Origin: Zanthoxylum bungeanum
Lineage: Eukaryota > Streptophyta > Magnoliopsida > Sapindales > Rutaceae
NCBI GenBank assembly: GCA_019454045.1
Contig: SKCR01047711.1
Span: 1 to 64,000, forward strand
Direction: 5' to 3'
Length of the DNA stretch: 64,000 nt
The position numbers and the translations under genes were made by a program. Positions 21,315 through 62,150 of this stretch are shown here, one piece after another; position 1 is the stretch's first letter; every line of letters begins with the position of its first letter. Below the pieces are notes generated by a model. It searched no databases, was not told where the DNA came from, and saw nothing but the letters and a program-made list of their open reading frames with translations.

Positions 21315-22601
21315 TTAAGAAAGCATCCTTAGTTCGTTTAAGATATTAAGGATATTCTTAACTGCTATCCAGTGACCTTCACCTGGATCGGCCTGATAGC
21401 GACTACACATGCTCAAAGCATATGAGACATCAGGTCGTGTACATATCATGGCATACATGATCGATCCGACTGCCGAGGCGAACGGTATCCGACTCATGTT
21501 GTCTCTCTCTTCCTGAGTCTTAGGACACATGTCCTTAGACAGAGAGGTACCACGTATCATTGGAACCAATCCCCTCTTGGATTGTTCCATGTTGAATCGC
21601 TTCAACACTTTATCAATGTATGTACTCTGGGAGAGTCCAAGCAGCTTTCTAGATCTATCCCGGTAGATCTTTATTCCAAGAATAAAGGCTGCTTCTCCCA
21701 GATCTTTCATGGAGAATTTTAATGAAAGCCAAGCTTTCACCGACGTTAGCATGGGAATGTCATTGCCTATCAGCAATACGTCGTCGACATAAAGGACGAT
21801 AAAAGTAAGTGCTCTCCCACTAACCTTCTTGTATACACAAGGGTCATCTGCGTTTTGCACGAAATCATATTCTTTTATGATCTCATCAAAACGTTGATTC
21901 CATGACCGTGATGCTTGCTTCAATCCATAAATGGATCGATTTAACTTACAAACCTTGTTTGCAAGTCTTGGCACGATAAAACCGTCAGGCTGTTGCATAT
22001 AAACATCCTCCAAAAGGTTTCCGTTAAGGAAAGCGGTTTTAACGTCCATCTGCCATATCTCGAAGTCGAAATATGCAGCTATTGCAAGCATTATCCGAAT
22101 GGATTTAATCATGGCAACGGGTGAGAAGGTCTCGTCATAATCAATACCGTATTGTTGACGATACCCCTTCGCTACAAGCCTAGCTTTGTACGTTTGTACG
22201 TTGCCATCCATGTCGGTCTTCTTCTTGAAGATCCATCTGCATCCAATAGGCTTTACGCCTTCTGGTGCATCAACCAGTGTCCAAACTTGGTTGGCGTACA
22301 TGGAATCCATCTCGGACTTCATGGCTTCTTGCCATAAAGCGGAATCGATATTTCGTATCGCTTCCTCATACGTAGCCGGCTCATTATCCTCAATCAGATT
22401 AATATCTACATGAGGTGAGATCAGGAACCCATACCTCTCAGGTACTGTTCTGACTCTCTCCGACCTACGCGGTCCTTGTGTATGTGAAGTTTGTGGTACA
22501 GACTCATCCTGGACGGTCTGTTCTTGTTCCGTCGTTGATTCATTGCCAGGAACAGTATCACTACGATCTTCATCGAGTTCTACTTTCCTCCCACTTACCA
22601 C
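21315..22601 (-). CDS. Copia reverse transcriptase (Pol segment)
   Basis: A 428-residue open frame, the longest in the window. The N-terminal 60 residues are a variable linker (SERVRTVPERYGF). The copia RT domain then begins with EEAIRNIDSALWQEAMKSEM and WTLVDAPEGVKPIGCRWIFK. Core motifs are KARLVAKGYRQQYGIDYDET, QMDVKTAFLNGNL (first catalytic Asp), LNRSIYGLKQASRSW and FIVLYVDDVLLIG (catalytic YVDD intact). The thumb and connection region ends near SMYAMICTRPDVSYALSMCS. The enzyme would copy element RNA into cDNA inside virus-like particles. It is one segment of a Gag-Pol polyprotein, so the listed Met is not a real start. The RNase H that should follow is frameshifted. Confidence 0.93.
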   Translation of the reverse strand: MVSGRKVELDEDRSDTVPGNESTTEQEQTVQDESVPQTSHTQGPRRSERVRTVPERYGFLISPHVDINLIEDNEPATYEEAIRNIDSALWQEAMKSEMDSMYANQVWTLVDAPEGVKPIGCRWIFKKKTDMDGNVQTYKARLVAKGYRQQYGIDYDETFSPVAMIKSIRIMLAIAAYFDFEIWQMDVKTAFLNGNLLEDVYMQQPDGFIVPRLANKVCKLNRSIYGLKQASRSWNQRFDEIIKEYDFVQNADDPCVYKKVSGRALTFIVLYVDDVLLIGNDIPMLTSVKAWLSLKFSMKDLGEAAFILGIKIYRDRSRKLLGLSQSTYIDKVLKRFNMEQSKRGLVPMIRGTSLSKDMCPKTQEERDNMSRIPFASAVGSIMYAMICTRPDVSYALSMCSRYQADPGEGHWIAVKNILNILNELRMLS

Positions 22602-22873
22602 TTACCACTGTTTATAAAATCCTTCTCAAGGAAAAATGCTTGTAGAGCAACAAATACTTTGTTCTCTTGTGGGTGATAGAAGTAATATCCTTTGGTTTCC
22701 CTAGGATATCCTACAAAAAGGCATTTATCAGTTTTGGGTTCAAGTTTGGTACTTTCCCAACGTTTAACATGTGCCCAGCATCCCCAAATCTTCAGGAAAG
22801 AGAAACTTGGTTTCCTTCCTGTCCATATCTCATATGGAGTCTGTTCAACAGACTTCGACGGTACTTTATTCAA
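22595..22873 (-). pseudogene. Integrase C-terminal segment of copia A
   Basis: A 92-residue frame with SVEQTPYEIWTGRKPSFSFL, KIWGCWAHVK and FVGYPRETKGYYFY, a set typical of the end of copia integrase. A frameshift near 22890 separates it from the catalytic core, and a stop at 22595 separates it from the RT frame that overlaps it by a few bases. The combined integrase would otherwise be of usual size. Confidence 0.85.
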
Positions 22874-22890
22874 AATAAGTATAGCACTGT

Positions 22891-23535
22891 TTAATGCGAT
22901 CCCCAGAAGGATATTGGTAGCTCAGTGCGACTCATCATTGACCTTACCATGTCCAACAAGGTGCGGTTTCTCCGTTCGGACACACCATTTAATTGCGGTG
23001 TTCCAGGAGGAGTCCACTGTGAAAGAATACCATATTCTTTCAAGTAATCTTGAAACTCATAACTCAAGTATTCGCCACCACGGTCTGACCGTAATGTCTT
23101 AATACTCTTCCCTGTTTGTTTCTCCACTTCGTGTCGAAACTCTTTGAATTTCTCAAAAGTTTCCGACTTGTGTCTCATAAGATACACATAACCGTAACGA
23201 GATGCATCATCTGTAAAGGTTACGAAGTAGTGAAATCCACCTCTAGCCTGGCTAGACATGGGCCCGCATACGTCAGTATGAACGAGAGCTAACAGTTCTG
23301 TGGTACGTTCACCTTTACCGCTAAAAGGTGATTTAGGCATTTTGCCTAAAAGACAAGATTCGCAGACGTCATATGAATTGAGATCAAATTCGTCCAAGTA
23401 CCCACTCTTCGAAAGTGTGGATATGCGAGTCTTGTTAATGTGTCCTAGACGACAATGCCACATATAAGCTTCATCTTTTAGATTACTCCTTTTGAGCCTT
23501 TTGTTTGTCATTTTAGGAGATTCATTTATATTCAA
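22891..23535 (-). CDS. Copia integrase, zinc finger and catalytic core
   Basis: A 214-residue segment. WHCRLGHIN followed by CESCLLGKM is the HHCC zinc-binding module with the pre-integrase region. The core has Asp in VHTDVCGPM, Asp in LRSDRGGEYL and Glu in NGVSERRNRT, the DD35E triad, all present. It would join cDNA ends to the target with a 5-bp stagger, matching the 5-bp TSD seen. The upstream part from the protease end continues in another frame, and the downstream part is frameshifted at about 22890. Confidence 0.92.
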   Translation of the reverse strand: MNINESPKMTNKRLKRSNLKDEAYMWHCRLGHINKTRISTLSKSGYLDEFDLNSYDVCESCLLGKMPKSPFSGKGERTTELLALVHTDVCGPMSSQARGGFHYFVTFTDDASRYGYVYLMRHKSETFEKFKEFRHEVEKQTGKSIKTLRSDRGGEYLSYEFQDYLKEYGILSQWTPPGTPQLNGVSERRNRTLLDMVRSMMSRTELPISFWGSH

Positions 23536-23578
23536 AATATAAAGACCGTTATTTGCAACAGCTATGCAAATTTCTGCA

Positions 23579-23959
23579 TCATTTTATATAAATAACACCC
23601 AGTGTTTCTAATACAAAAGTGTAACCCTGCTGGGTTAACAAGGATACAGATATAATATTCCTAGTTAAACTAGGTACAAAATAACAGTTTAAAAGTTTAA
23701 GTACATGCCCTGAGGGCAGTTCTAAAACAAAAGTCCCTACGGCCAAAACAGCAACTGGTGTTCCGTTTCCGACCCGTAGATCCATCTCCCCTGTCGCCAG
23801 CATCCTGCTATCATGCAGATCCTGCACATCAGTACAAATATGAGCACCACAACCAGAATCAAAAATCCAATTTTTAAAACTAGAAGTATTCATATTTATC
23901 TCAATAACAAACATACCAGAGGCGGTAGCCTTGCCACCCTTGCTATCCTCCTTCTGCAC
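23579..23959 (-). CDS. Copia aspartic protease
   Basis: A 126-residue frame carrying WIFDSGCGAHIC, the active-site D-S-G of retropepsin-type proteases in copia elements, followed by VGNGTPVAVLAVGTF and LKLLNCYFVPSLTRNIISVS, the usual second half of the domain. It cuts the polyprotein into Gag, protease, integrase and RT-RNase H. It overlaps the gag frame by 17 bases in a different frame. A real polyprotein would be continuous here, so the overlap probably reflects a small indel. Confidence 0.88.
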   Translation of the reverse strand: MQKEDSKGGKATASGMFVIEINMNTSSFKNWIFDSGCGAHICTDVQDLHDSRMLATGEMDLRVGNGTPVAVLAVGTFVLELPSGHVLKLLNCYFVPSLTRNIISVSLLTQQGYTFVLETLGVIYIK

Positions 23960-24758
23960 AATGTTTTTTGGCAGTCACGTTTCCAGTGACCCCTTTTGCC
24001 GCAGTTAGGCAGATGTCGCGAGATTTGTCCTTTGGCTTCCTAGAAGCCACTGTCAACTTGCCTTTGCCCTTCTTTTTGAACTTCCTCTTCCTCGCACCTC
24101 CAATTGCCATGGGCCTAGCCTTTGGCGCATGAGAGGTCGATGCATAATGCGCCTCGCGCTTGCTCCCCTTTAGGAGTTCCCTTTCGGACTCCTTCAGCAC
24201 GGACAACAACTCTCCAAGAGTGTCGTCAGTATCCATCAACTTATAGTTGACGATGATTTGTTTCCAAGTATCGGGCAGCGATTGTAATATCATATCAATC
24301 GTCAGCTCTGCCTCCAAGACAATGCCCATATTGGCTAACTCATCTATGTCAGCGATCATTTGAGTCCCGTGGGCCTCAACTGATGCGCCATCTGTCATCC
24401 GGGAGCGGAAGAGTTTCCTTACTAGCTCTCGTACCTCTTCATCCGCTTGTTAGTGCGGTGAAGATCACGCAATCTTGCCATCATGTTATAGGGATCCAAG
24501 TCCCTGTTTTGCGTCTGAAATGCTGGGTCATTGCAGCTAGCATAACTGACTGAGCTTGGTCACAATCGTCACTATGAGTCTTCCATAACTCTAGCTCCAG
24601 TGGCTCAGTGGGTTTAGGCGGGAGAGGCTCTGAATAGTATACAGTACCCTCTCAGCCCCAAGCACTATCTTGAGGTTCATTTCCCAGTCGGCAAAGTTTG
24701 TCCCTTTGAAGACATTATCGCCCATGATTATGTCGCGGATATTACCTTTGCCAGTCAT
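23943..24758 (-). pseudogene. Copia Gag, frameshifted
   Basis: Capsid-nucleocapsid protein that would package element RNA. The likely start is the ATG at 24756-24758, giving MTGKGNIRD and then FKGTNFADWEMNLKIVLGAE, the usual N-terminal shape of plant copia Gag. The middle (24400-24650) is broken by stops. A 151-residue frame from 24398 resumes with ILQSLPDTWKQIIVNYKLMD and a basic stretch RKRKFKKKGKGKL. The expected CX2CX4HX4C zinc knuckle is not intact; the surviving end has scattered Cys and His only. Confidence 0.8.
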
Positions 24759-27104: not shown

Positions 27105-29033
27105 TGTTGGTTTCTATAATATGTCCCAAACAAAGATTAAGCATGTGAAATACTATAAATGAATATATATATAAGACTTGAAGCATGGCGGAATCATACT
27201 TACAAAGCTATGTGATGAAGAAGATGATCAAATGGTGGAAGCTCCAAGTGTTGGAAGATTCGGCCAAGGGAGGAAGAAGACTTGAAGCTCCAAGCTTTTG
27301 TATTCCAAGCTCTTTGATGGTTTCCCTATCACCTCTTTTGATCCCTTGCTTGTGCTAGCAAAAATGGAGAATAGAAGATCAAATCTTCCTTTGTCCTTCA
27401 TGGAGTTCACGGCAATGTGAAGAAATTTGAGAGAAAGAGTTTTGTGTAATTGATTTTGTTTTACCAAAAATCAATTTATATTTATGCCATAATTTTATTA
27501 AATTAATAATAAATCTATGACACAAACCATGCAATGGCTTAGAGTGTCAAACACTCAAACTCCATGCAATGCATTAGAGTGTAATGCACTTATCACCATG
27601 CAATGCCTTATCAATTAAATAATGCATATAATGACAAGTGTCATGTGGGCCCCACACGTTTCCCAATGAAAGTGGGCCCACGTCCATTCGCATCGCGTTC
27701 GGGTTCGATATTTCCGAAATACCGAGCTTACGTCGCGACGTTAATTAAACCGAATTTAAATAAATAATTGCGCCTGGCGAAATTATTATTTACGTCGCTA
27801 ACGAATTAATTCTAAATTAACTCGTATGCCCGAATTAAAATCTAATTTTAATTTCGCGTCGAAATCGAATTTCGATTATTATATCGAATACAATAATTTT
27901 ATCGATTAATTCCAAATTAATCGTTCTCTCTCTAAATTAGGCACTTTATCCAAGATAAAGTTTCTCCGCAATTAATCCAAGATTAATTAAGTCGAATCAA
28001 ATATCATAGGTGAATCTTCAGGAAGCGACCCAAGAGATCTCCGGATATTTGGCAGTAAATACGGTCGTCGGATAATCCGAACACGTACGTACCTCGTACT
28101 ACGTCTTTACCGATTTACAAGACAAGGTTGGCTTCTAGCAAAGCGCCATGCCTACCCAATTCTCCAGAAATATTCTTATAGGAATATAAGATCTGTATCA
28201 AGCGTAGTATACCGTAGTATTGCGTACATCGATCCAGTATCGGATGATCACATGCTAGGCCTAGGGCTGGAGATGTGTCTGCCCCGTACGAAACATATAT
28301 CGGACATCAAGCAACTAGTCTCTTTAAATCGGACAATCCTGACCTGTCATATTGTCCCGACGGTTGCAACCTTTTATAGAGTACTAGTTCTGTGCCCTGC
28401 ATGATCATCACCTCCATATGTCTGAAGCGATACTTCCATCTTGACATCACATCCAGTACACTACGCTTCTCGATAAACCCAGAAGAGGTGTACACAGAAC
28501 CGGTTTAGGTCCCCAACCACCAAAACCAAAGTTTACCGATTGTCGCAAGTACTAGCGATGTAAGTCTCAGGTTAAGACCATATACACCTACCCTGATGCG
28601 GCCTCCCATAGACACATAGACATACTACCAATGGGATTCCGCGGGGTCTATCCAGAGCGAAGCTGTTTTCCGTACCATCGGTAAAACACAACCTCCTATC
28701 GCACTTGCATAAGTATCCAATACTTAAATATATGAGAACTATGCCGTTGTGCCCTCACAACGTGCACAAGCGCAATACTAGCCTATTCCGCATTATCGAT
28801 GTCCAGTCTCGATAATACTACGGCTAGGGATATTTAATGATTAAACCTTTATGGATTGATACTGTCTCATATCATCTCAATCCGTACTAATCATATGGAC
28901 TTTTGCCATTTATATATCAAAGTAAATAAAATTACAAAACGGCAAAAGGCAATTTCATTATCACATAGTTAATTTTGTACAATAATACAATATCATTTAC
29001 AAACAGTGACGCTATGGGACATAATGTCTAACA
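27105..29033 (-). repeat. 5' LTR of copia A
   Basis: On + TGTTGGTTTC...GTCTAACA, followed by the TSD TGAAC. Near-identical to 18856-20789. Differences are mainly one- to few-base indels. Confidence 0.92.
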
Positions 29034-37625: not shown

Positions 37626-40600
37626 TGTGGGACACAGAAACTGGACGACGCATGATGTTCTAGGCTCGCGGCCTAGTCGGGAGTATGGAGTAGCCACGGG
37701 GGACTAAACCGGAGAATAATGGAGTCACCACCCGGTGTGAACCGGGAAAATGAGATTTAAGGCCGCACTCACCCCTCGCAAGTGAAGACATCAAACCATT
37801 GGGTTCGGAATGGTCCCTTACTTATGTCACTTGTAATGAAAGGATTTGTGTAATAATTTAATCAAGCTTAAGTAACACTTATTTCCAAGAGTATCATGCT
37901 TCTAAGTTTATATGTGCAAAAATAAAACTTACACCTAAATTTGCATATATCTTACATCTAAGATTGCATGCTTGAAAGTAAGTCAAAGTAGCAACGAACA
38001 TACAACTTCATTGGCATATTGTATTCATGGAAACACAAGCACACACTAACCACGCAAGCACACATAAAAGCGAATCAAATAATGGCAAACATGTGATTTC
38101 AAAGACATGTCATACTTATACGTGCGGAAGCATAAGCAAATAGCCATTACATGTCCATGCGTAAATAAAAGAGTCAACTAAGTATATAATGCAAAAAGAT
38201 AATTAAGGATGCAATTAGGCATTAAAGTAATCATGCTATGACGTGGTGCAAAAGAAGATAACTAATATGGACACAAACACACATATGAGCACTTTTCCAA
38301 GTGGTACGTGGAATTGTATCCCAAGTACAGACCGCACTATCGTCCATTCGGAATCGGCTACAGAATTTATGTCTGGATTTCCATCCGATATCCATAAGAA
38401 ATAATAATCAAATGCTTATCATAACATGGATATATGAATTGTAATACGTTAACCCAAGACTAAGGTAAATGATGCAACCAATGGAATAAATGTGCTTTTC
38501 ATTACGATGCCTACAAAGATAAAGATGACTATATGGGATTTCATAATACATGCGTGAATAGAGCAATGATGTGTTAAAAGATAAATGACATGGCAAAAGC
38601 GCGGCAAAACATCGTGGTAAAGGCTTTTAACCCCTCGACATAGAGGACCTTTAATCCCATTTATTAAGCCCATGTGCACATAATACAATGCATATATAAA
38701 GTAAAGAAAATGATATCGGGCTTCGCGTATCCGATTGAACACATCTCACACTCAATCGAATACACCTTATTCGGCGTGGCAAAGCATCGTGGCAAACGAT
38801 TTTAACCTCTTCAATTAGTGGACCTTTCATCGCATTTACTAAGCCAATGCGCAATTAACACAATGCATATATATAAAACAAAAGTGAATACAAAGATATC
38901 CGCCGCGGCGAAGCATCGTGGTAAAGGATTTTAACCTCTTCAATTAGAGGACCTTTCATCGCACTTACTAAGCCCATGCGCAATTAACACAATGCATATA
39001 TATAAACAAAATTAAATACAAAGATATCGGATTTCGTATACCCGATTGAACATATCTCACATCCAATCGGATATACATCGTCCGGCGCGGCGAAGCATTG
39101 TGGTAAAGGATTTTAACCTCTTCAATTAGAGGACATTTCATCGCACTTACTAAGCCTATACGATTTTCTCATCATTACATAAATAAATAACATGCAGAAA
39201 TTTAAATGGCGGAATAATTAAATAACTCAAAATAACAAAATATGTGCCATTTACTCGAGTGGTACATGGAGTTGTTTCCCAAGTACAGACCGCACTACCG
39301 TCCATTCGGAATCGGCTACGGAATTTACGTATGGGTTTCCATCCTATATACCACAAGAGGCGACACACTTTCCATTCATCCAATACCCACAACACACATC
39401 ATATTCATAATACATGTATATTTATCTACTCAAGACCACAACATGCATTTTATCATAATAATCATGCGAACAAAACTCAATAAATAATAAAAATAAAACA
39501 GAAAACGAATGTGGAAAATACCCTAAGGTCTAACCTTTTTTGCCAACTTTCGGACTTGCGTTTCACGGAGATCGGAAGGGTAAAGCTCCTCAACTTCTCT
39601 GGTTCACTGGTTTAGCGTCTTAGCTCACTGTTTTACTGTTTTGCTTGCTGTTTGGCCTCCGTTTTGCTGCTGTTTTCTCTATATTTTCTGCTCACTGTTC
39701 AGGTCACTATTTTGGCGTTTCAATGGACTATTTTGGGTGTTTTTTTAAAGGTTTTAAGTGCAGTTTTTTGTGATTATTTTAAGGATTATAAGTACAGTTT
39801 TTATTTTACTGTTTTAAGGATTTTAGGGACTGTTTTAAGTGGATTTGGGCTGCTGTTTGGAGTGATTTAGGCGTGCAGTACATGGGCTATTTCAGGTCAG
39901 TTTTTTTGGGCAGTAATGGCGTTAATTGTGACTGTTTTGGTGTGCAGTGGGGGGGTAGTGTTTAGGGTTGTTTTGTGCGACTTTAGGATTTATTTGAGGC
40001 TTATTTTGGTGTGGATTAGGGCTGTGAAAGGTGGCTAAAGATGCGGCAAAGGGGGGCTGTCTAAGGGATGAGTATTCGGTGGTGATAGTGGATGAGATGG
40101 AGAGAAATTTTGTTGCTTCTTTATTGTGATTTGCGTGTAATGTCTAGGGCCTTTTTTGTTGTGATTTGCGTGTGAGTTATGTGTATGAGCTATGGGAGTG
40201 CATGTCTTGGTTAGGGGTTGTTTATATAGTGAAGGGCTAGGGCTTCTCCTTGTCTCACAAGGAAGGGATTTGATTTAGTGTTGAGCAAGGAAAGTCAAAG
40301 ATTTGATGGAGACAAGATTGGTTTAGATTATGAAGTCAATATATTTCATTTGGTTATGAGTGATTTAATTAGGCATAATATCTTCTTAATTTAGTATGTC
40401 ATTTTGTTTAGTTAGGAAGTTAATATATTTGATTTATCTAAATTAGGTATGATTATATTTTATGTTTTATTTAATTAGTAAATGGTTTAATTATTTTATT
40501 TAATTCAATTACATTATCTAATTAATATTTAATTTAATATTTTATTAATTTGGGTGATGGGCGTGTGGGCCTAATGTGGTGTGGGCTTAATGTGGCTTGG

Positions 40601-40838
40601 TTAGTGGGTTAGGCGTGCATGGGCTAGATTAAAAAAGGGTTTTGGTTTTTTTCTGGGCCAAAGGTGATCTAAACAAAGGTCCAACAAGTGAGGTTGACGC
40701 TAAATAAGTGAACAAGGATCTAACAAAATACCGAGTCCCTTTCGACGACCGTTTCCCGCAATATCCTTAACTAAAAAGTTAGTGCCTCCAACTGAGACTC
40801 ATCATCGGGTTTCACATGCAAAAATGCAATGCCTACAG
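37626..40838 (-). repeat. 3' LTR of Tat element
   Basis: On + TGTGGGACACAG...AATGCCTACA. Four diverged tandem units with ATCGTGGTAAAGGATTTTAA and GAGGACCTTTCATCGCACTT occur near 38607, 38787, 38913 and 39098. A T-rich, A-poor block (39600-40560) on + has no genes despite several chance ORFs. It is closely similar to 48594-51788. Confidence 0.92.
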
Positions 40839-48593: not shown

Positions 48594-51500
48594 TGTGGGA
48601 CACAGAAACTGGACGACGCATGCTGTTCTAGGCTCGCGGCCTAGTCGGAAGTACGGAGTAGCCACGGGGGACTAACCGGAGAATAATGGAGTCGCCACCC
48701 GGTGTGAACCGGGAAAATGAGATTTAAGGCCGCACTCACCCCTCGCAAGGGAAGACCTCAAACCGTTGGGTTCGGAATGGTCCCTTACTTATGTCACTTG
48801 TAATGAAAGGATTTGTGTAATAATTTAATCAAGCTTAAGTAACACTTATTTCCAAGAGTATCATGCTTCTAAGTTCATATGCGCAAAAATAAAACTTACA
48901 CCTAAATTTGCATATATCTTACATCTAAGATTGCATGCTTGAAAGTAAGTCAAAGTAGCAACGAACATACAACTTCATTGGCATATTGTGTTCATGGAAA
49001 CACAAGCACATACTAACCACGCAAGCACACATAAAAGCGAATCAAATAATGGCGAACATGTGATTTCATAGACATATCATACTTATACGTGCGGAAGCAT
49101 AAGCAAATAGCCCTTACATGTCCATGCGTAAATAAAAGAGTCAAGTAAGTACATAATGCAAAAAGACAATTAATGATGCAATTAGGCATTAAAGTAATCA
49201 TGCTATGACGTGGTACAAAAGAAGATAACTAATATGGACACAAACACACATGTGAGCACTTTTCCAAGTGGTATGTGGAATTGTATCCCAAGTACAGACC
49301 GCACTACCATCCATTCGGAATCGGCTACGGAATTTATGTCTGGGTTTCCATCCGATATACCACAAGAAATAATACTCAAATGCTTATCATAACATGGATA
49401 TATGAATTGTAATACGTTAAGCCAAGACTTAGGTAAATGATGCAACCAATGGAATAAATGTGCTTTTCATTACGATGCCTACAAAGATAAAGATGACTAT
49501 ATGGGATTTCATAATACATGCGAGAATAGAGCAATGATGTGCTAAAAGATAAATGACATGGCAAGAAGCGCGGCAAAACATCGTGGTAAAGGCTTTTAAC
49601 CCCTCGACATAGAGGACCTTTAATCCCACTTATTAAGCCCATGCGAACATAATACAATGAATATATAAAGTAAAGAATATGATATCGGACTTCGCGTATC
49701 CGATTGAACACATCTCACACTCAATCGAATACACCTTATTCGGCGCGACAAAGCATCGTGGCAAAGGATTTTAACCTCTTCAATTAGAGGACCTTTCATC
49801 GCACTAACTAAGCCCATGCGCAATTAACACAATGCATATATATAAAACAAAAGTGAATACAAAGATATCTGGCGCGGCGAAGCATCGTGGTAAAGGATTT
49901 TAACCTCTTCAATTAGAGGACCTTTCATCGCACTTACTAAGCCCATGTGCAATTAACACAATGTCTATATATAAACAAAAGTAAATACAAAGATATCGGA
50001 TTTCGTATACCCGATTGAACATATCTCACATCCAATCGGATATACATCGTCCGGCGCGATGAAGGATCGTGGTAAAGGATTTTAACCTCTTAAAGTAGAG
50101 GACCTTTCATCGCACTTACAAAGCCCATGCGCTTTTCTCATCATTACATAAATAAATAACATGCAGAAATTTAAATGGCGGAATAATTAAATAACTCAAA
50201 ATAACAAAATAGGTGCCGTTTACTCGAGTGGTACGTGGAGTTGTTTCCCAAGTACAGACCGCACTACCATCCATCCGGAATCGGCTACAGAATTTATGTC
50301 TGGGTTTCCATTCTATATACCACAAGAGGCGACACACTTTCCATTCATCCAATACCCAAATCACACATCATATTCATAATACATGTATATTTATCTACTC
50401 AATGGCCACAACATGCATTTTATCATAAAAATCATGCGAACAAAACTCAATAAATAATAAAAATAAAACAGAAAACGAATGTGGAAAATACCCTCAGGTC
50501 TAACCTTTTTTGCCGACTTTCGGACTTGCGTTTCACGGAGATCGGAAGGGTAAAGCTCCTCAACTTCTCTGGTTCACTGGTTTAGCATCTTAGCTCACTG
50601 TTTTGCTATTTGCTTGCTATTTGGCCTCCGTTTTGCTGCTGTTTTCTCTGTATTTTCTGCTCACTGTTCAGGTCACTGTTTTGGCATTTCAATGGACTAT
50701 TTTGGGTGTTTTTTTAAAGGTTTTATATGCAGTTTTTTGTGATTATTTTAGGATTATAAGTGCAGTTTTTTATGTTACTGTTTTAAGGATTTTAGGGACT
50801 GTTTTAAGTGGATTTGGGCTGCTGTTTGGAGTGATTTAGGCGTACAGTACAGGGACTGTTTCAGGTCAGTTGTTTTGGGCAGTAATGGCGTTAATTGTGA
50901 CTGTTTTGGTGTGCAGTGGGGGGAGTGTTTAGGGCTGTTTTGTGCGACTTTAGGACTGTATTTGAGGCTTATTTTGGTGTGGATTAGGGCTGTGAAAGGT
51001 GGCTAAAGATGCGGCAAAGGGGTGGGTATTCGGTGGTGAGAGTGGAGGAGATGGAGAGAAATTTTGTTGCTTCTTTATTGTGATTTGCGTGTAATGTCTA
51101 GGGCCTTTTTTGTTGTGATTTGCGTGTGAGTTATGTGTATGAGCTAGGGGAGTGCATGTCTTGGTTAGGGGTTGTTTATATAGTGAAGGGCTAGGGCTTC
51201 TCCTTGTCTCACAAGGAAGGGATTTGATTTAGTGTTGAGCAAGGAAAGTCAAAGATTTGATGGAGACAAGATTGGTTTAGATTAGGAAGTCAATATATTT
51301 GATTTGGTTATGAGTGATTTAATTAGGCATAACATCTTTTTATTTAGTATGTGATTTTGTTTAGTTAGGAAGTTAATATATTTGATTTATCTATATTAGG
51401 TATGATTATATTTTATGTTTTATTTAATTGGTAAATGGTTTAATTATTTTATTTAATTCAATTACATTATCTAATTAATATTTTATTTAATTTGGGTGAT

Positions 51501-51788
51501 GGGCGTGTGGGCCTAATGTGGTGTGGGCTTAATGTGGCTTGGTTTGTCTTGGTTAGTGGGTTAGGCGTGTATGGGCTAGATTAAAAAGCGTTTTGGTTTT
51601 TTTCTAGGCCAAATGTGATCTAAACAGAGGTCCAACAAGTGAGCTTGACGCTAAATAAGTGAACAAGGATCTAACGAAATACCGATTCCCTTCCGACGAC
51701 CGTTTCCCGCAATATCCTTAACTAAAAAGGTAGTGCCTCCAACTGAGACTCATCATCGGGTTTCACATGCAAAAATGCAATGCCTACA
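48594..51788 (-). repeat. 5' LTR of Tat element
   Basis: On + TGTGGGACACAG...AATGCCTACA. It has the same internal tandem units as the 3' LTR (near 49577, 49757, 49885, 50070). It ends directly at the CCTAG duplication and the copia B primer site. Confidence 0.92.
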
Positions 51789-52811: not shown

Positions 52812-54883
52812 TTATGAGCGAAAAATATATCAATATTTACCGCCCCTTTAACTTAATATTTTGTTTAGTTTCTCGGGTTTGATGAACGTTTTGATGTGTT
52901 TTAGTTTATTTTGCAGATAAAATAATATCGGGTCTCAATGAAATCATTTAGGATGAAATATGGGTCAAATAAGGGCAATTATTGGACTTGATATTTTAAT
53001 TTTGGAGATTGGAAACTTGAAAGGGCGTTTTGACGAAGTGCAGTTTTGGAAATTCTAGTTTTGCGCATCTGTCGTATTTTGGGCATAACCTTTTACTCAG
53101 ATATCGGATTGAGCTGATTCAAGTTTCAGATTAAGTAAGACTCAAAGATATACAACTTTAAAAAACAAAATAATTTCTAAGTCTGAAGTGTTCATGCCCG
53201 AAATTGATGAACCATCCAGAAGTGTGTAGTGTGTAATTATTAAAGTCACTTTCAATCATTTTCAAAGCAAAAAAATAAATTAATAAAAAATAATAAAAAT
53301 TATCAAATCATCACCAAACATGATAAGAGATTAGTGGAGCAATTAATAATGGATTTGGTGGAGCAATTAGTGGAGCAATTAATAATTGATTTGGTGGATG
53401 ATTTGATGGAGGCAAAATTTTGCCTATAAATACCAAGCCATTTCATTTGTAAAATTCATACTTTCTTCTAAGGAATTCTTAAGAATACTAAGAAGATTGT
53501 ATCTTGTTTGTTTATTTACAGCTTTCAGTAATTAATTTTCGTTTTCGCCCTTTCTTTTCTTTACTTTTCAGTTTTTACTTTCCGCAATTTACTTTTACGC
53601 ACAGTACTTTTCTTTATTTAATTTTCAGTTTTTACTTTTCAGTAATGAGGAGGTAACTCCCCTTTGCTGGGGTAAAAGGTAAAACTTTTATTACTAATAT
53701 TTAGATTAATCTCCCTTAATTATAATATATAAACTAGTTAAAACCTGACTTAACGAGGATACCGCCATATTGGTCGGTTGGTAATTATTTAAATTGGTTT
53801 TAACCTGACTAAAGTGGATACCGCCTGATTGGTCGGTTGGTAATTAATTATTAATTTGACTTAATCTGGATACCGCCTATATGGATGGTTGGTAATTATC
53901 ATGCAAAGTTAATATATTATATTAAGGGAGATATCTAAAATAGAAGTAATAAAAGTGGATCCTTTTACCTCAACATTTTCTTTAATTGTAATTTTACCTT
54001 ATTTACTTTTCAGCAATTTACTTTTCAGCAATTTACTTTTCAGCATTTAATTTTCAGTATTTAATTTTAGCATTTACTTTTCAGCATTTAAATTTCAGTA
54101 TTTTACTTTATGTCTTTTATTTTATTTAAGTTTTTTTACTACCCGTAAATATGTGTCGTAACTAAGCCAATTATCTGGGGTTGTGATGAAATCCAATATC
54201 ACCGGTTTATAAAGGGTTAAATTATAGTTGTGGTAATTTAAAGGTTTACTTATTAAGTCTTAAGCTTAATGCTTCTTGTTGTCTGATCACCAATAAGATT
54301 GATGTGGTAAATCTAAAATGAACTAGACATAGGGATTTTAGGTTTCAGCCTTAGACTTAATAGCCCACGATCTTCCTTGAGGATAGATAGCCCTTTAATA
54401 GATTTCCTTACAGGATAGACATATACCTGTCGGGCGGGGGTAGCCATAATAGGAACTTAAACTTAATGAATCCAGATAATTTGGTTGACATAGAGATATG
54501 GTTCAATTGGGTTAAACTGGGTATTTGCGTCTGACCATCGACAGAGGCTTTTGCATAATTTAGTGTTCAAGGTTAGTAAACCGATTTATTACACAAACAT
54601 AAAATAACCACTTCATCTTTAAATGATATTGGATGAAATCACAACCCTAGATAGTTTTTAATATTGAATTTTCTTAAAACCTACTTTTGAACAATTTTAT
54701 TTACTTGTTTTTAAATTTAGAATCGTCACCATTTCAAATCAATCAAACAACCTGTTAGATACTAGTAATCATTTGACTTCATAAAATTAATAGATTAGAT
54801 ATTAAGTCCTCGTGTGATCGATATTTTATACTACTTGAACGATACGTGCGCTTGCGTTATATGTGTGTGTTTACGCCGGTCAA
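52812..54883 (+). repeat. Athila-type LTR, left arm of palindrome
   Basis: Begins TTATGAGCGAAAAATATATC (TG changed to TT) and ends TTACGCCGGTCAA. Internal tandem blocks: GGATACCGCC repeated three times about 58 bp apart (53758-53872) and many ACTTTTCAGCA-type units (53540-54110). Its reverse complement follows at 54908-57022 with few differences. On + it is oriented as a 5' LTR; the next bases GTTTTTTAGGGATT could be a remnant of a primer site. Confidence 0.85.
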
Positions 54884-54907: not shown

Positions 54908-57022
54908 TTGATCGGCGTAAACACACACGCATAACGCAAGCGCACGTATCGTTCAAGTAGTATAAAAATATCGATCCCACGAGGACTTAATATCTAATCT
55001 ATTAATTTTATGAAGTCAAATGATTACTAGTATCTAACAGGTTGTTTGATTGATTTGAATGGTGACGATTCTAAATTTAAAAACAAGTAAATAAAATTGT
55101 TCGAAAGTAGGTTTTAAGAAAATTCAATATTAAAAACTATCTAGGGTTGTGATTTCTTCCAATATCATTTTAAAGATGAAGCGGTTATTTTATGTTTGTG
55201 TAATAAATCGGTTTACTAACCTGGAACACTAAATTGTGCAAAAGCCTCTGTCGATGGTCAGACGCAAATAGCCAGTTTAACCCAATTGAACCATATGTCT
55301 ATGTCAACCAAATTATCTGGATTCATTAAGTTTAAGTTCCAATTATGGCTACCCCCGCCCGACAGGTATATGTCTATCCTGTAAGGAAATCTATTAAAGG
55401 GTTATCTATCCTCAAGGAAGATCGTGGGCTATTAAGTCTAAGGCTGAAACCTAAAATCCCTATGTCTAGTTCATTTTAGATTTACCACATCAATCTTATT
55501 GGTGATCAGACAACAAGAAGCATTAAGCTTAAGACTTAATAAGTAAACCTTTAAATTACCCAAACTATAATTTAACCCTTTATAAACCGGTGATATTGGA
55601 TTTCATCACAACCCCAGATAATTGGCTTAGTTACGACACATATTTACGAGTAGTAAAAAAAACTTAAATAAAATAAAAGACATAAAGTAAAATACTGAAA
55701 ATTAAATGCTGAAAAGTAAATGCTGAAAGTAAATGCTGAAATTAAATACTGAAAATTAAATGCTGAAAAGTAAATGCTGAAAGTAATTGCTAAAAAGTAA
55801 ATTGCTGAAAAGTAAATTGCTGAAAAGTAAATAAAGTAAAATTACAATAAAAGAAAATGTTGAGGTAAAAGGATCCACTTTTATTACTTCTATTTTAGAT
55901 ATCTCCTTTAATATAATATATTAACTTTGCATGATAATTACCAACCAGCCATATAGACGGTATCCAGATTAAGTCAAATTAATAATTAATTACCAACCGA
56001 CCAATCAGGCGGTATCCAGTTTAGTCAGGTTAAAACCAATTTAAATAATTACCAACCGACCAATATGGCGGTATCCTCGTTAAGTCAGATTTTAACTAGT
56101 TTATATATTATAATTAAGGGAGATTAATCTAAATATTAGTAATAAAAGTTTTACCTTTTACCCCAGCAAAGGGGAGTTACCTCCTCATTACTGAAAAGTA
56201 AAAACTGAAAATTAAAGAAAGAAAAGTATTGTGCGTAAAAGTAAATTGCGGAAAGTAAAAACTGAAAAGTAAATAAAAGAAAGTGCGAAAGCAGAAATTA
56301 ATTACTAAAAGCTATAAATAAACAAACAAGATACAATCTTCTTAGTATTCTTAAGGAATTCCTTAGAAGAAAGTATGAATTTTACAAATGAAATGGCTTG
56401 GTATTTATAGGCAAAATTTTGCCTCCATCAAATCATCTACCAAATCAATTATTAATTGCTCCACTAATTACTCCACCAAATCCATTATTAATTGCTCCAC
56501 TAATCTCTTATCATGTTTGGTGATGATTTGATAATTTTTATTATTTATTTCTTAATTTATTTTTTGCTTTGAAAATGATTGAAAGTGACTTTAATAATTA
56601 CACACTACACACTTCTGGATGGTTCATAAATTTAGGTCATGAAATCTTCAGAATTAGAAAATATTTTCTCTTTAAAGGTTGTAGCTCCTTGAGTCTTCTT
56701 TAATCTGGAACTTGAATCAGCTCAATTCGATATCTGAGTAAAGAGTTATGCCCAAAATACGACAGATGCGTAAAACTAGAATTTCCAAAACTGCACTTCG
56801 TCAAAACGCCCTTTCAATTTTCCAATCTCCAAAATTAAAATATCAAGTCCAATAATTGCCCTTACTTGACCCATATTTAATCCTAAATGATTTCATTGAC
56901 ACCCGATATTATTTTATCTGCAAAATAAACAAAAACACATCAAAACGTTCATCAAACCCGAGAAACTAAATAAAATATTAAGTTAAAGGGGCGGTAAATA
57001 TTGATATATTTTCCGCTCATCA
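54908..57022 (-). repeat. Athila-type 3' LTR, right arm of palindrome
   Basis: On - it starts TGATGAGCGG at 57022 immediately after TTTGGGGGTG, a polypurine tract, and ends ...CGCCGATCAA at 54908. So it is the 3' LTR of the element lying to the right on -. The arms match almost throughout, including the GGATACCGCC repeats. Confidence 0.88.
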
Positions 57023-57032
57023 CACCCCCAAA
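57023..57032 (-). other. Polypurine tract of - strand Athila-type element
   Basis: TTTGGGGGTG on -, directly before the LTR TGATGAGCGG. The upstream CTAGCAAAATGTTAGG context is typical for such elements. Confidence 0.8.
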
Positions 57033-58350
57033 CCTAACATTTTGCTAGTCCTCGAGCAAAACAACAAAATAAAAATAAAATTCAACTAAGCCACTTTCGT
57101 AGGGATCACGGTTACATTTAGCATATGCAACAAGCCTTTAAACCCCTAGGTGTCCCTAGTGGACGAGTTATAGTCTCGTGAGGGCTTACAGCAACGATAC
57201 CCACAAACGTTTTACAAAGTTAAAAATATAATAAAACTAATGCACACAAAAGCAAAAAGACAAGAGAAAAGAGAATACAGATGTTAGTGACTAATCAGGT
57301 GAAACTTTTACTCCAAGTTACTAGTTGTTTTATTTCATTCTAAATTACCGAATAAGTAAATTCTCCGATTATTTTTACCATTCTCCATATACAGAGCCAA
57401 CAAAATATTAATCAACTCATTTTTGCCCACAACAGTCATAAGTGCAGTTGATAAGAGAGTAATATTTTTGTCCTAAAGTTTTATCAGAATTCACACCTTT
57501 TTGCAGCAATTGAATAATTTTTCTGATTTTTCTGATTTTTTTCTTTGATTTTTCTCTATTTTTTATTTATATACAATATCTTCCATCTATGTAGCGAGTG
57601 TTGGGTTGGTGGCTCCCAAACCAGTTGGCTTTAGGGCACCAGGTGTTAAGACACCCCTACGGACTTAATTACTCAGACATCATATATATATATTTTTGCA
57701 GCATCTTTGATCCATGTAGCGAGCTTTGGGCCAATGACTCCCAAACCAGTTGGTTTTAGGGCACTAGGTGTCAAAACACCCTTACAGACTTAATAACTCG
57801 GATCTCGGACGTTTTTTTTTTTTTTTTTTTTTACTCCATTGCTTTTTGAGATGCTTCCTCCAATTAAACTAGAGCACTGAATATTACAAACTTTTCAATT
57901 TTAGCTCATGTCCATATGTTACCATGTATGTTGATAATATCTGTCAACTGAGCATATGAAGATTCATTTTAGTCAATTTTATGGAGAATTTACAAATTAA
58001 ATAATTCAAAAGGAAATAAACAAAAATTAACTTGTTTCGAATTAGGTTTGAGATACGTCTCAGGAGTGGAAACTCCTTACTCAGCTATCTCTTACCAATT
58101 TCACCTTTTTAGTCAAAATAAAAATACAAAAACACAAAATATTTTTTGTAATTTTTGAAAATTTTTCAATTTTTTTGTATTTTTCGAAAAATTTTGAACT
58201 AAAAATAGAAACAACACACAACTAAAAAAACAAGGTACTAATCAACTAATTCTCTCCCCCTAACCTAAATGAGACATTGTCCCCAATGTCTTAAACAGTA
58301 GTAGAAGAGTTTAGAAGATAATACCTGGTTAGCTGAAATTCTACAGGAGA
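57033..58350 (-). other. Athila-type 3' untranslated region
   Basis: No coding frame. A tandem duplication of about 124 bp has copies at 57582-57685 and 57707-57808, sharing CTCCCAAACCAGTTGG and TTTAGGGCACCAGGTG. A run of 21 T lies at 57812-57832. ATTGGGGACAATGTCTCATT with a following TTAGGGGGAGAG (58255-58300, read on -) is the GGGG-rich boundary motif that recurs in Athila-like elements and lies about 50 bp after the LOG-like stop. Confidence 0.65.
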
Positions 58351-59002
58351 TTAAAGGTTAAGATCCAGATTAACACGACGCCTCTTACCACGATCATCCT
58401 CGGACCAATTTATCTTTGAAAAGACAGGGTCAATTTGTGGTTCATAGGCTAAGAGTTGGTCTATTAGATCCGGAGCAGTTCTGGCAGTAAATAAGAGTTC
58501 TTTTAAAGGTTTTGATATGAACCCATTTCTCCGGGCATCATCAAGAAACACACAAAGGAAATCATAAAATCCATCAACGTTAAACAGCCTAATTGGTTTC
58601 TGGTGTATGTTCAGGTTCGCCCAAGATAGTACTATAAAAATTTCCTCCAATGTGCCCAAGCCACCTGGCAAAGCAATAAAAGCATCAGCACGGTTAATCA
58701 TTTCTACCAGTCGTTCAGACATACCTGGCACCATCAGTTCCTCTCCGTTTGATGATCCAATAAGATTTGCCTCTGCCAAGGGTTTTGGATGATTACTAAA
58801 ACGTTACTACCTCCTTCCTGTACGGCTTTTGAAACGATCCCCATAAGTCCAAGATTACCTCCGCCATATATTAAGTGCATATTCCTTGCAGCTAAGACTC
58901 GACCCAATTCCTGTGCTGCTTCTATGTATGTGGTTTAGTACCAACACTACTACCGCAAAACACACAAATATTTTCAACTCGTCTTCTTGAAGTGGCTTCC
59001 AT
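58351..59002 (-). pseudogene. LOG-like cytokinin riboside 5'-monophosphate phosphoribohydrolase, intronless, frameshifted
   Basis: LOG enzymes release active cytokinin bases from their riboside monophosphates in the cytosol. The likely start is the ATG at 59000-59002: MEATSRRRVENICVFCGSSV matches the LOG N-terminus. A one-base loss near 58925 shifts the frame. The next frame gives AAQELG and then YGGGNLGLMGIVSKAVQEGG. A second shift near 58790 leads to the 142-residue frame with GEELMVPGMSERLVEM and ALPGGLGTLEE (the PGGxGTxxE nucleotide-binding motif), then LNIHQKPIRLFNVDGFYD. It stops at 58351. The span of about 217 codons equals a full plant LOG, without introns. The usual RK pair is RL here. 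It lies in sense with the surrounding Athila element, between pol and the 3' LTR. Confidence 0.88.
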
Positions 59003-59350
59003 GTTTTTATGTATTTCTTTCTCAAATCAGGATGCCTTCAAAAGTGCATTGACGAGCTGAATTTATAGTACCTGAAAAGGATGAGTAAAAATAGCACAAG
59101 TATCTTCCAAAGGACGATTAGTAACAAAATAGTAAAATAGATCGTGATATGGTCAAAAAGGTCTGGATCCTGTCGGAGAAAATAAAAGAAAACAACAAAA
59201 CAAATCAAAATTATTAGGAAAAGACAAAGACATATAATATGTACAAGAATTAGAGCTTGATTAACGTCTATGCGTCAAGGACAAGTTTCCCATCCATTTT
59301 CTTATAAATTGGCAAACAGGGTCTTTTTGAGTCAGATTCCCAAGACTTAA

Positions 59351-59815
59351 CTATTGTCTTTCTTTTTGAAATTGTGTATGTAATCTACGAAAGGCTATGT
59401 GAACATATCCACTGGGATGCGTCTCAAGAGTCGAAGATATATCATCTAAAGACTCCTTACTCAAGCCATCCCTAATGAATTTAATTTTGTCTTCGCGATT
59501 ATTAGACACCATTCCTAAAGAACGACAACGAGTATTGCAATTCCAACGTGCACATTTCTAACAAACACCCATTTGCTTAGCTCTTCGTTTCTTTGCATAT
59601 ATGCTTCTTCCAAAACCAGGCAGATGTGAAATAAAAGAGTCTTAAGACTCACCTGCCAATCGGACTCGTGCTTCAATTACCCAACGAATGTCATTGGGAA
59701 CACCATGGATCGTCAGTAACCTCATCCGTTCCAAGCGAGCTTTGTAAACTTTCATTAGATATTTTTGAGGGAGAGAAGGAAATTGCTTGTGAAGATTTGC
59801 GAGAGCTTCTTCCAT
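59351..59815 (-). pseudogene. Unrecognised reading frame upstream of the LOG-like gene, two internal stops
   Basis: From the ATG at 59815 a single frame runs about 154 codons to a stop at 59351, interrupted by TAA (59642-59644) and a TAG near 59558. The first 58 residues (MEEALANLHKQFPSLPQKYL...) are basic and probably helical. The part after the second stop has CARWNCNTRCRSLG, a cysteine pattern that could bind metal, and then HPSGYVHIAFRRLHTQF. A TTTTTTGCAG splice-acceptor-like sequence precedes it. I do not recognise the family. It may be an extra element ORF or another captured fragment. Confidence 0.5.
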
Positions 59816-59889
59816 CTTGAAATGTCTTAACCTGCAAAAAACTAAACACACAAAATTAAATCACACCAAATCACAATATATACAAAAAT

Positions 59890-59954: not shown

Positions 59955-60290
59955 TTAAGCTGGATCTGAAAGTGTAACACTGTCTTTTTGTCGCTCAAAT
60001 GATTCTCCCCAGTAGTGCTTGACACGCTTGTTTTTAACCTTGAAAGTTTTGTTAGCGTCAGGATCATGTATCTCAACGGCTCTATTTGGTAAAACTTTGG
60101 TGATCACAAATGGACCTGACCACCGTGATTTTGGCTACCATGGGAAGAATTTCACCCTTGATTTGTTTAACAGTACCTTCTGCCCTGGTTCCAGTTATAT
60201 GCCCACTAACTTCTCATCATATCTTTTCTTGCCCTTTTCTTTGTACAATTTGGCATCTTCAAAAGGCTGATTGATCAACATGGATCTCAT
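59955..60290 (-). pseudogene. Athila-type integrase C-terminal end, two in-frame stops
   Basis: One frame on - reads MRSMLINQPFEDAKLYKEKG, KRYDEKLVGI, stop, PGQKVLLNKSRVKFFPW, stop, PKSRWSGPFVITKVLPNRAV, then HDPDANKTFKVKNKRVKHYW and a terminal stop at 59955-59957. The RWSGPF block is the GPY/F-type module at the end of gypsy integrases. The zinc and catalytic domains are absent: at about 60291 the sequence switches to gag on the opposite strand. Confidence 0.85.
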
Positions 60291-60295
60291 CTGTC

Positions 60296-61389
60296 ATTGA
60301 TGATACTTATTCTGGGATTTCCCATCAACCAATCAACGCCAACAATTTTGAGCTAAAACCTGCATTGATCAACATGGTGCAAAGAAATCAGTTTGGGGGT
60401 TCAACTGTAGAAGATCCCAACTTGTACTTAAAGATGTTCCTGGAGATCGCAGATACTATAAAGATGAATGGCGTGAGTAAATAGGCCATCGGGCTGCACT
60501 TATTCTCATTCTCTTTACGGGATAAAGCGTGGGATTGGCTTCAATCAATACAAACAGGGAGTATCATGACATGGTAGGATATGGCCACGAAATTTCTTGA
60601 GAGGTTATTTCCACCAAATAAATCAGCTCAGCTGAGGGCAGAAATTAGTATATTTAAACAACTGGAGACTGAGACTCTATATGAAGCATGAGAGCGCTTT
60701 TGGGATCTACTACGAAGATGCCCACAACATGATTATGCAGACTGGGTCCAGATTCAGTTGTTCTATAATGGGCTGAATAGTTCAAATATGATTGTGGTTG
60801 ATGCAGCAGCTGGGGAGCTCTATTAAAAAATCAGCTGAGGATGCCTACAATCTATTAGAAGAAATGTCCATTAACCATTTTCAATGGCCAAGTGAACGCG
60901 CTACAGTGACCAAAGTGGCTGGAATATATGAAGTCTCTTGTGCCACTTACAACTCAGATTTCCACCTTATCTACTCAAGTAGCAGTCCTGACAAATCTAC
61001 GAGTACCATCTATTGAACCAGCGGCAGCTACAAATATGCGGTTATTGGAAGGAGAACCAAACTTTGAGAAAGTCCAATATGTGAACAATCAGAATTTCAA
61101 CAGCTATAGAGGAAATCCTGTGCCTAACCGTTATCATCCAAACCAGTCTTATGCTAATAAAGAGAATGACTTGCAACCTTCATCCGGATTCGATTATCAA
61201 AGAGCTGAGCAAAAATCTTCCTTAGAAGATTTCATGAGCACGTTTGTTGCTAATACTTTAGCGAGGTTTGAGAAGAATGAGTCAAGGCTAGACAATATTG
61301 AGACACACATGGAAAATATCGGGGCAACAATGAAGTCCTTAGAAACACAGATTGGACAGATTACTTCCTCCATGACCAAGCAGCAGTAA
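60296..61389 (+). pseudogene. Athila-type Gag, degraded
   Basis: Frames on + give FELKPALINMVQRNQFGG, EDPNLYLKMFLEIADTIK, SLRDKAWDWLQS, ATKFLERLFPPNKSAQLRAE and ERFWDLLRRCPQHDYADWVQ, the capsid order of plant gypsy Gag. In-frame stops lie near 60480, 60574, 60688 and 60825, and frameshifts near 60820 and 60940. The last frame (60928-61389, 153 codons) has SYRGNPVPNRYHPNQSYANK and a C-terminal coiled-coil-like stretch ending SSMTKQQ. No zinc knuckle is visible and protease, RT and integrase do not follow. Confidence 0.85.
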
Positions 61390-62150
61390 GGGGTATTTGG
61401 ATAAACTGCCACAGCTGCCAAGCTATCTTTTTCATGTCAAAGCAATCAGTGGATACAAAAGAAGAAGCTACCATGACCACCATTTGGGTGGTTGCGTCTG
61501 GCTGAAGACGTTAAACTTAGCGCTATCAGGGAGGCAACCCTTGCATTTATTTTATTATTTTTTTTCTTTATTTATAATTTTTATTTTATTGTGTGCTATT
61601 TTTTTACTTATTCGTTTTGCATGCTATTTATGTAGGTAGCACGAGACACACAAAGCCCACGCAACCAAATTCTAACCAGCAAGAGCCTGATCAACTTCAT
61701 GCACGGTAGTGTTGTTCCTCACTCTTGTTCTTTATTTTTTATCTTACATTGAGGATAATGCAAGTTTTAATTTTGGGGGTGTGTGCATGTTGTTTACTTG
61801 TTATTTATTTGTTTAAGTTAAAAAAAAATATTGTTTTTAGTCTTTGATAGTAAAACATAAATCCTGAGATGATACTGTTTGTTTATGAGTGAAATTTTAG
61901 AAACGATAAGTGCCCAATTAACTTTTATCTGATGCCTTGAGTAGTTGATCTATGTTTGACTCGTAAGCACTCAATTATAGGTTTTTAGCAGTGAAAACTT
62001 AAGTAGTTGACAAGGTGACTAGTTAAAGAAATTGCATGTCGATGAATGACCTTTTGCTTAGATATCTATCTTGATTTGCTAGTGTTATGATGTATGGTAT
62101 GGATAGAAATAAAAGAAAATGTCTCTAAAGAAAGAAAATAAACCACCTAT
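61390..62150 (+). other. Athila-type 3' region joined directly to gag
   Basis: Contains the post-pol motif (TTAAACTTAGCGCTATCAGG, about 61508) and an ATTGAGGATAATGCAAGTTT motif with TTTTGGGGGTG (61749-61788). A further 360 bp with GATAAGTGCCCAATTAAC (about 61906) follow. Pol is deleted between 61389 and 61490. No coding sequence. It is cut by the LTR at 62151. Confidence 0.65.

Follow-up and report, generated by a model that had tools for sequence, protein, structure and literature searches.

A LOG-like gene and a putative virus-type NABP gene in a truncated, probably Athila-like element of Zanthoxylum bungeanum

How does a LOG gene without introns come to lie inside a long terminal repeat (LTR) retrotransposon, and is it a recent acquisition or an old resident? 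The question is raised by a stretch of 64,000 nucleotides from Zanthoxylum bungeanum (contig SKCR01047711.1, positions 1 to 64,000; hereafter the window), in which an initial annotation had seen a LOG-like cytokinin gene on the minus strand and explained it as a spliced host transcript captured by an Athila-type RNA. Beside this gene there is a second one, a homologue of the cysteine-rich nucleic-acid-binding proteins (NABPs) of carlaviruses and mandariviruses. Both genes are present in the window, and the order integrase, NABP, LOG occurs in gene models of other plants. It is probable that the window holds the 3' portion of a Ty3/gypsy element, Athila-like and now dead, belonging to a lineage with a resident NABP-LOG module after the integrase. 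That the two-gene module is real and resident appears highly likely.

Two genes between an integrase remnant and an LTR

The features of the element and the LTR next to it are as follows.

60087..60278, minus strand: integrase C-terminal remnant with two in-frame stops, upstream of NABP and LOG (matches to P0234 and P0254)
59276..59821, minus strand: NABP homologue of the carlavirus/mandarivirus type (similarity to P0208 and P0205)
58351..59002, minus strand: LOG-like accessory gene, or retro-LOG (tblastn segments, PF03641, TIGR00730, PDB 2a33, residue pattern)
57020..57035, minus strand: polypurine-tract-like sequence adjoining the LTR (by sequence; presumed function)
54909..57019, minus strand: 3' LTR of the LOG element, TG...CA, about 2.1 kb (inverted-repeat arms, ends, alignment)
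52815..54882, plus strand: inverted second LTR of the same family, TG...CA, with flanks AGTTA/AGTTT (repeat arms, alignment)

When P0002, an intact relative of 217 aa, was compared with the whole window by tblastn, three collinear minus-strand segments in three frames were aligned without gaps (E 1e-102). Positions 59002-58928 correspond to residues 1-25 (88% identity), 58928-58779 to residues 26-75 (76%), and 58788-58354 to residues 73-217 (89% over the last 145 aa). The LOG of the window therefore has 217 codons, two one-base shifts and no intron, just as the initial annotation had described it. Its longest open piece (150 aa) matches PF03641 at 9.3e-29 with 100.7 bits against a Pfam cut-off of 27, TIGR00730 with 97.2 bits against a cut-off of 96.35, and the Arabidopsis LOG structure 2a33 at E 4e-31; for a sequence similarity of this degree chance is excluded. 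The PGGLGTLEE motif and the catalytic Arg and Glu are retained, and the reading ends with KRRRVNLDLNL. This copy of LOG is dead. No second LOG copy was found in the 64 kb by tblastn with P0002, the next match having an E value of 0.87, and an Rfam scan of the window gave no match.

What lies between the integrase and the LOG? The second gene was discovered through P0126, a LOG homologue of 334 aa from Acer yangbiense, which has about 140 extra residues before its LOG part. Their counterpart in the window is the sequence separating integrase and LOG (51% over 139 columns, E 1e-38). The gene of the window lies in a single frame with an ATG at 59815, is broken by three in-frame stops, and is 65% identical to P0208 over 178 aa (E 6.6e-79) and 57% identical to P0205 over 180 aa. 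A search with residues 1-150 of P0126, which admitted only proteins of about 184-585 aa, gave 65 proteins, the query included. Their common part of about 185 aa (alignment A2) consists of a basic arm and a Cys-rich region. At E <= 0.01, Carla_C4 is matched by 21 of the 30 members of A2 (best 2e-7) and Viral_NABP by 19 of them (best 2.6e-8), and four of ten relatives scanned (P0208, P0230, P0250, P0265) are above the Pfam gathering score. The open pieces of the window copy, at 59354-59557 and 59518-59676, have no Pfam match at E 0.1, so the name NABP comes from the relatives. No NABP was found in phage records.

The integrase remnant is matched by residues 50-113 of P0234 from Rhamnella (E 3.4e-10) and by residues 380-423 of P0254, an integrase protein of Citrus (E 4e-5); the open piece beside it (59958-60134) has no relevant Pfam match. 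The LOG lies in sense with the minus-strand element, with the remnant (60278-60087) upstream and the LTR (57019-54909) downstream. The order integrase, LOG, LTR noted earlier thus stands, and what had been overlooked is the NABP gene, the inverted LTR and the loss of the 5' part. Further upstream of the remnant there is no nearby minus-strand match to the integrase of the relatives, which indicates that the element has lost its 5' part; we have here a truncated, dead copy. The inverted LTR stands tail to tail with the 3' LTR, the two ends separated by 26 bases, and is probably a separate solo LTR. The Kimura two-parameter (K2P) distance between the two LTRs is 0.036, which is not an insertion date because they are not the pair of one element. 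Extra open reading frames (ORFs) between the integrase and the 3' LTR, one mark of the Athila lineage, are present here as NABP and LOG.

The gene order in other plants and the tree of LOG

Is this gene order peculiar to the window? The 65 NABP proteins were scored for linkage with profiles built in this analysis, and all of them match NABP, 30 by construction. NABP and LOG occur in one gene model in 19 of the 65, and the LOG part is always downstream. These models come from Citrus x changshan-huyou (10), Acer yangbiense (3), Orobanche (3), Rhamnella (2) and Diplodiscus (1). Citrus belongs to the Rutaceae; Acer and Diplodiscus are malvid rosids, Rhamnella is a fabid rosid and Orobanche a lamiid asterid. 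Domains of pol accompany NABP in P0230 (Populus, RNase H) and in P0235 and P0254 (Citrus sinensis, integrase; P0254 also reverse transcriptase), and according to precomputed Pfam matches also in P0247, P0248 and P0260. The last, a Citrus protein, has integrase (Pfam rve, precomputed), NABP and the C-terminus of LOG in one model. In P0267 from Rhamnella, residues 2-63 match P0254 in the part that comes after its integrase core (61%, 62 aa, E 5e-24), and the order is integrase C-terminus, then the end of NABP, then LOG. P0234, also from Rhamnella, opens with this part as well (64%, 101 aa) and continues with NABP. Copies of LOG at the same place, which the initial annotation had expected elsewhere, do exist, P0260 and P0267 reaching the integrase side; the segment is not confined to the window, since the NABP-LOG order is common to other plants.

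Some of the models are irregular. P0249 (Citrus) has further LOG pieces before NABP, and two LOG parts each are seen in this protein and, by eye, in P0121, P0122 and P0125 (Xanthoceras); they are probably gene models that fuse neighbouring copies. By eye, the LOG parts of Orobanche P0250, P0259 and P0265 are strongly diverged with an altered PGGxGT, and P0250 and P0265 still have a basic, Leu-rich tail. Searches of viral contigs with P0002, A1, A2, P0110 and P0209 gave no DNA of relatives, and searches of genome contigs gave nothing with P0002 and only three bacterial LOGs (L001-L003) with P0083.

How old is the presence of LOG in such elements? The LOG homologue lists were the best 120 each of 1529 and of 8000 homologues, obtained with two queries, and 201 of their 203 proteins were scored for residues and tails, two under 100 aa being dropped. 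Sequences with Tyr in PGGYGT and with Glu125 were called host-like (n = 35, nearly all LOG7-type); the non-host-like ones (n = 166) were set by residue pattern and include fragments and unplaced sequences. A quick tree of 48 rows contained 34 of 153 full-length candidates after thinning at 82% identity and 9 of the 19 NABP-LOG models. In a careful tree, of 55 rows in all, P0250 and P0259, two long rows from Orobanche, were left out, nine host rows were added, and the bacterial LOGs L001 and L003 served as outgroup, L002 being unused.

In the careful tree a single clade (98/98) holds 41 retro rows, separate from the 12 host LOGs (98/88) and from the two bacterial ones. The retro rows are 33 LOG-clade representatives, seven NABP-linked rows (Acer, Citrus, Rhamnella, Diplodiscus) and the window. 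The quick tree, with the long Orobanche rows included, puts a retro group of 43 on one side of a branch with support 99. NABP-linked rows sit near the base of the retro clade (Acer) and in both of its main branches. One deep clade with rosid and, in the quick tree, asterid members makes the capture of LOG look old. A single old capture followed by retention would be the simplest reading of the tree, with horizontal spread of elements and repeated LOG capture as possible alternatives. The long retro stem (0.41) and the narrow host sampling do not point to any particular donor LOG.

Pairwise identity among the 33 LOG-clade rows has a median of 0.58 and a minimum of 0.37. Relatives with open frames, on which the initial annotation had made the spread of mobile copies depend, exist: 98 of the 166 non-host-like homologues are 209-219 aa long and start with M. 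So many open LOG ORFs despite the divergence hint at selection on the ORF, although protein databases favour open frames. In P0160, P0005 and P0026, complete ORFs of 215-217 aa stand on contigs of 734-792 bp, too short to hold introns as well, provided that they are genomic. As for host LOGs, most of the 24 in peanut have 7 exons and 6 introns, according to the available text of PMC13257298.

Pocket, tail and possible substrate of the LOG

What might such an enzyme act on? In CgLOG numbering, the catalytic residues are Arg99 and Glu122 and the proposed prenyl pocket is Met96, His97, Lys100, Glu125 and Trp129, the pocket residues being identical in AtLOG3, OsLOG and CpLOG (PMC4979012, available text). 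The window LOG reads MSERL, PGGLGT, EE, I and W at the corresponding places. It thus has the LOG-family motif PGGxGTxxE with Arg99 and Glu122. In the pocket Met96 and Trp129 are kept, and His97 is replaced by Ser, Lys100 by Leu and Glu125 by Ile, so the cytokinin-specific set is absent. A similar picture is given by the non-host-like homologues, where Glu122 is found in 162 of 166, Arg99 in 144 of 159 scored and Trp129 in 162 of 165, and His97 in 45/160, Lys100 in 21/159 and Glu125 in 19/166. The PGGxGTxxE motif, too, is retained by most of the sampled relatives. All 35 host-like rows have all five pocket residues (Glu125 by definition of the group). Over 33 dereplicated rows, column conservation is 1.00 for E122 and 0.91 for R99, the mean being 0.69. 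With 47 rows scored on the careful tree, one change is needed for Glu125, two for Lys100 and three for His97. The basal rows P0127 and P0137 (Xanthoceras), P0084, P0134 and Acer P0126 retain His97, Lys100 and Glu125, P0126 being without Arg99. Probably, then, an ordinary LOG was captured, and the changes in its pocket came later.

Since three prenyl-pocket residues are changed, the term hormone-activating, applied to the enzyme by the initial annotation, is doubtful for the subclade of the window. It is rather doubtful that cytokinin would be the main substrate of the derived clade, and it is somewhat favoured that the LOG would be active in intact copies. Wheat LOGs which share the conserved critical residues gave different products (PMC11593424, available text), so that what we infer about the substrate of the retro-LOG should be taken as conditional.

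The C-terminal tail is a further difference from host LOGs. LxLxL occurs within the last 12 residues in 120 of the 166 non-host-like homologues against none of the 35 host-like ones, and a basic pair before it in 149 against one. The basal Sapindaceae rows have the basic part and lack LxLxL. A basic stretch followed by LxLxL can be read as a nuclear signal plus an EAR motif. The AlphaFold model of P0002 (pLDDT 84.9) finds AtLOG3 as its best Foldseek match (E 8.6e-21, TM 0.94 by target length), with a good LOG core and low confidence for tail residues 204-217.

Alternative explanations, surroundings and known systems

Could the LOG have arrived in a simpler way? The initial proposal amounts, roughly, to a transduction that was recent and local: one Athila-type family in the genome of the window would have taken up the spliced mRNA of a host LOG. 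An intron-free LOG in sense within the element is what such an event would leave, and captures of this kind are known for plant LTR elements (PMC7264820, available text). However, over the last 145 codons the LOG of the window is far nearer to P0002 (89%) than to P0084 and Populus LOGL10 (55-56%), the NABP-linked members of its clade come from Acer, Citrus, Rhamnella and Diplodiscus, together with Orobanche in the quick tree, and the neighbouring NABP is also common to other plants. Recent local transduction is largely refuted by the deep clade and the common neighbour, and we regard it as very unlikely. Of the initial proposal, the intron-free LOG in an LTR element stands, and the recent or one-off capture does not. 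It is even harder to credit that an independent processed retrogene, with its own poly-A and target-site duplication, landed in the element. The 21-A run on the LOG strand at 57832-57812 might be taken for its tail, but this run, the nearest one, lies 519 bp downstream of the LOG stop, no poly-A directly follows the LOG as the initial annotation would have expected of such a retrogene, and the position beside NABP is common to other plants. Judged by poly-A and position, this origin is extremely unlikely.

Two other explanations concern the clade as a whole. Its members might be host LOG retrogenes or genes which elements captured repeatedly and independently: several are annotated as ordinary genes (Populus LOGL10, chromosome-size contigs), most come without context, and the large clusters (205 and 81 member sequences) may be repeated sampling rather than genomic copies. 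NABP-linked rows are spread over the clade, some of them near its base (Acer), with the same neighbour in the same order, which makes this quite unlikely. The retro-LOG might also have no metabolic role, the LOG fold with its basic/LxLxL tail having a nuclear function that needs no catalysis, such as that of a repressor binding TOPLESS. The tail counts given above agree with this, as does the replacement of Arg99 in 15 of 159 sequences, but the catalytic residues are among the better-conserved columns, and such a role is improbable.

Some points weigh against a resident NABP-LOG module of an Athila-like element and should be noticed. The label Athila-like comes from ORF position and the cited precedent, the element being represented by its 3' part, without reverse transcriptase. 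Six of the ten NABP relatives scanned are under the gathering score, P0205, P0240, P0249 and P0254 with weak matches and P0233 and P0235 with none. The predicted NABP structure is poor (pLDDT 63.8), and in a search of viral folds flexivirus proteins rank first and third without significance (E 1.1 and 2.0; all viral matches E >= 1.1). Outside the window the linkage is seen in gene models, which may join ORFs across predicted introns; adjacency is therefore shown and exact spacing is not. The 166 non-host-like rows, coming from the best-120 lists of two queries, are an uneven sample, and most clade members (ENA, JGI) come without surrounding sequence and might represent transcripts or retrogenes of the host. 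Finally, the sequences in which Arg99 is replaced include Acer P0126 and several rows of intact length.

If the module is resident as we propose, how might it work? A spliced plant LOG mRNA would have been captured once, long ago, by an element and then inherited with it. In intact copies, the NABP-like protein might damp host RNA silencing or serve as a nuclear regulator, by analogy with viruses. Several cysteine-rich proteins of viruses suppress silencing, and p12 of chrysanthemum virus B is a transcription factor that induces hyperplasia (PMC12172455, available text). For the NABP of the element, a role as silencing suppressor is conceivable by this analogy, at somewhat less than even chances. 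The LOG-like protein would split the N-glycosidic bond of a nucleotide 5'-monophosphate. A cytokinin nucleotide may have remained the substrate in basal copies; in derived copies, that of the window included, the altered pocket suggests another or a broader nucleotide. Together the two proteins might favour multiplication of the element in dividing cells. The most far-reaching version, in which an old eudicot LTR lineage carries a pair for host manipulation, namely a flexivirus-homologous silencing suppressor and a LOG whose pocket has been reshaped to take a different nucleotide, conceivably a defence signal, and which has acquired a nuclear corepressor-binding tail, is unlikely, though it deserves mention.

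The surroundings of the module contain further repeats and elements. Between LOG and LTR are two adjacent 125-bp copies with 75% identity (57564-57813) and the 21-base A-run. On the other side, the minus-strand LOG element is abutted by a plus-strand stretch (60300-61800), where an open frame of 159 aa (60910-61389) looks gag-like by eye and precedes a polypurine-like tract. It looks like a rearranged second element, and three pieces of this region have no Pfam match above cut-off. A 3.2-kb direct repeat with 94.9% identity (37626-40837 and 48594-51788) encloses minus-strand gag-pol-like ORFs (41.7-47.5 kb) and is, by eye, probably the LTR pair of another element. Another direct repeat, of 1.94 kb and 98.7% identity (18856-20789 and 27105-29033), encloses a Ty1/copia-like polyprotein in a few pieces (ORFs 21315-24449, minus strand; copia assignment by eye), which is probably a young insertion.

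What does the locus mean? LOG looks like a long-lived passenger, paired with a virus-like NABP gene in models from five plant families. Should this hold, accessory genes in the style of viruses would be maintained by transposons against the control of the host, the exchange of genes between RNA viruses and plant retroelements could be tested, and among the annotated plant "LOG" or "LOGL10" genes some may belong to transposons and have another substrate. LOG in Gypsy elements is already in print. In 2011 Steinbauerova reportedly found two Athila-like elements similar to LOGL4. LOG/YgdH domains are described in Gypsy consensuses of Citrus sinensis and C. clementina and, with a looser filter, of Populus trichocarpa, in the available text of PMC9289625, which cites Steinbauerova et al. 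2011 (Genetica) on LOG in such elements. These elements resemble that of the window in being Ty3/gypsy with an extra LOG domain, and Citrus and Populus are also among the homologues here; the copy of the window is a further, broken member. The main text of PMC9289625, as far as available, contains no NABP homologue and no analysis of LOG residues, tail or clade. A limited literature search gave the LOG precedent and no report of NABP in LTR elements, and within that search the new points are the NABP gene next to the LOG, the one clade, the altered pocket and the tail.

Compared with the plant phosphoribohydrolases AtLOG3, AtLOG8 and LOG7, the LOG of the window shares the fold, PF03641, PGGxGTxxE and the catalytic Arg and Glu, and differs in having no introns, a separate clade, changes at H97, K100 and E125 and a basic plus LxLxL tail. 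The NABP of the element is like those of carlaviruses and mandariviruses in its basic arm and Cys-rich region, with a profile match of about 90 aa in some relatives; unlike them, it is encoded by an LTR retrotransposon, matches the profile in part and is no more than a candidate silencing suppressor. A flexivirus replicase-like sequence, not an NABP, is reported in cucumber (PMC3136472, available text), and Gypsy elements of Phalaenopsis have an ORF for an AlkB-type RNA demethylase (PMC9289625). The Phalaenopsis elements are like that of the window in being Gypsy elements with an enzyme domain also found in flexiviruses, and both the enzyme and the lineage differ.
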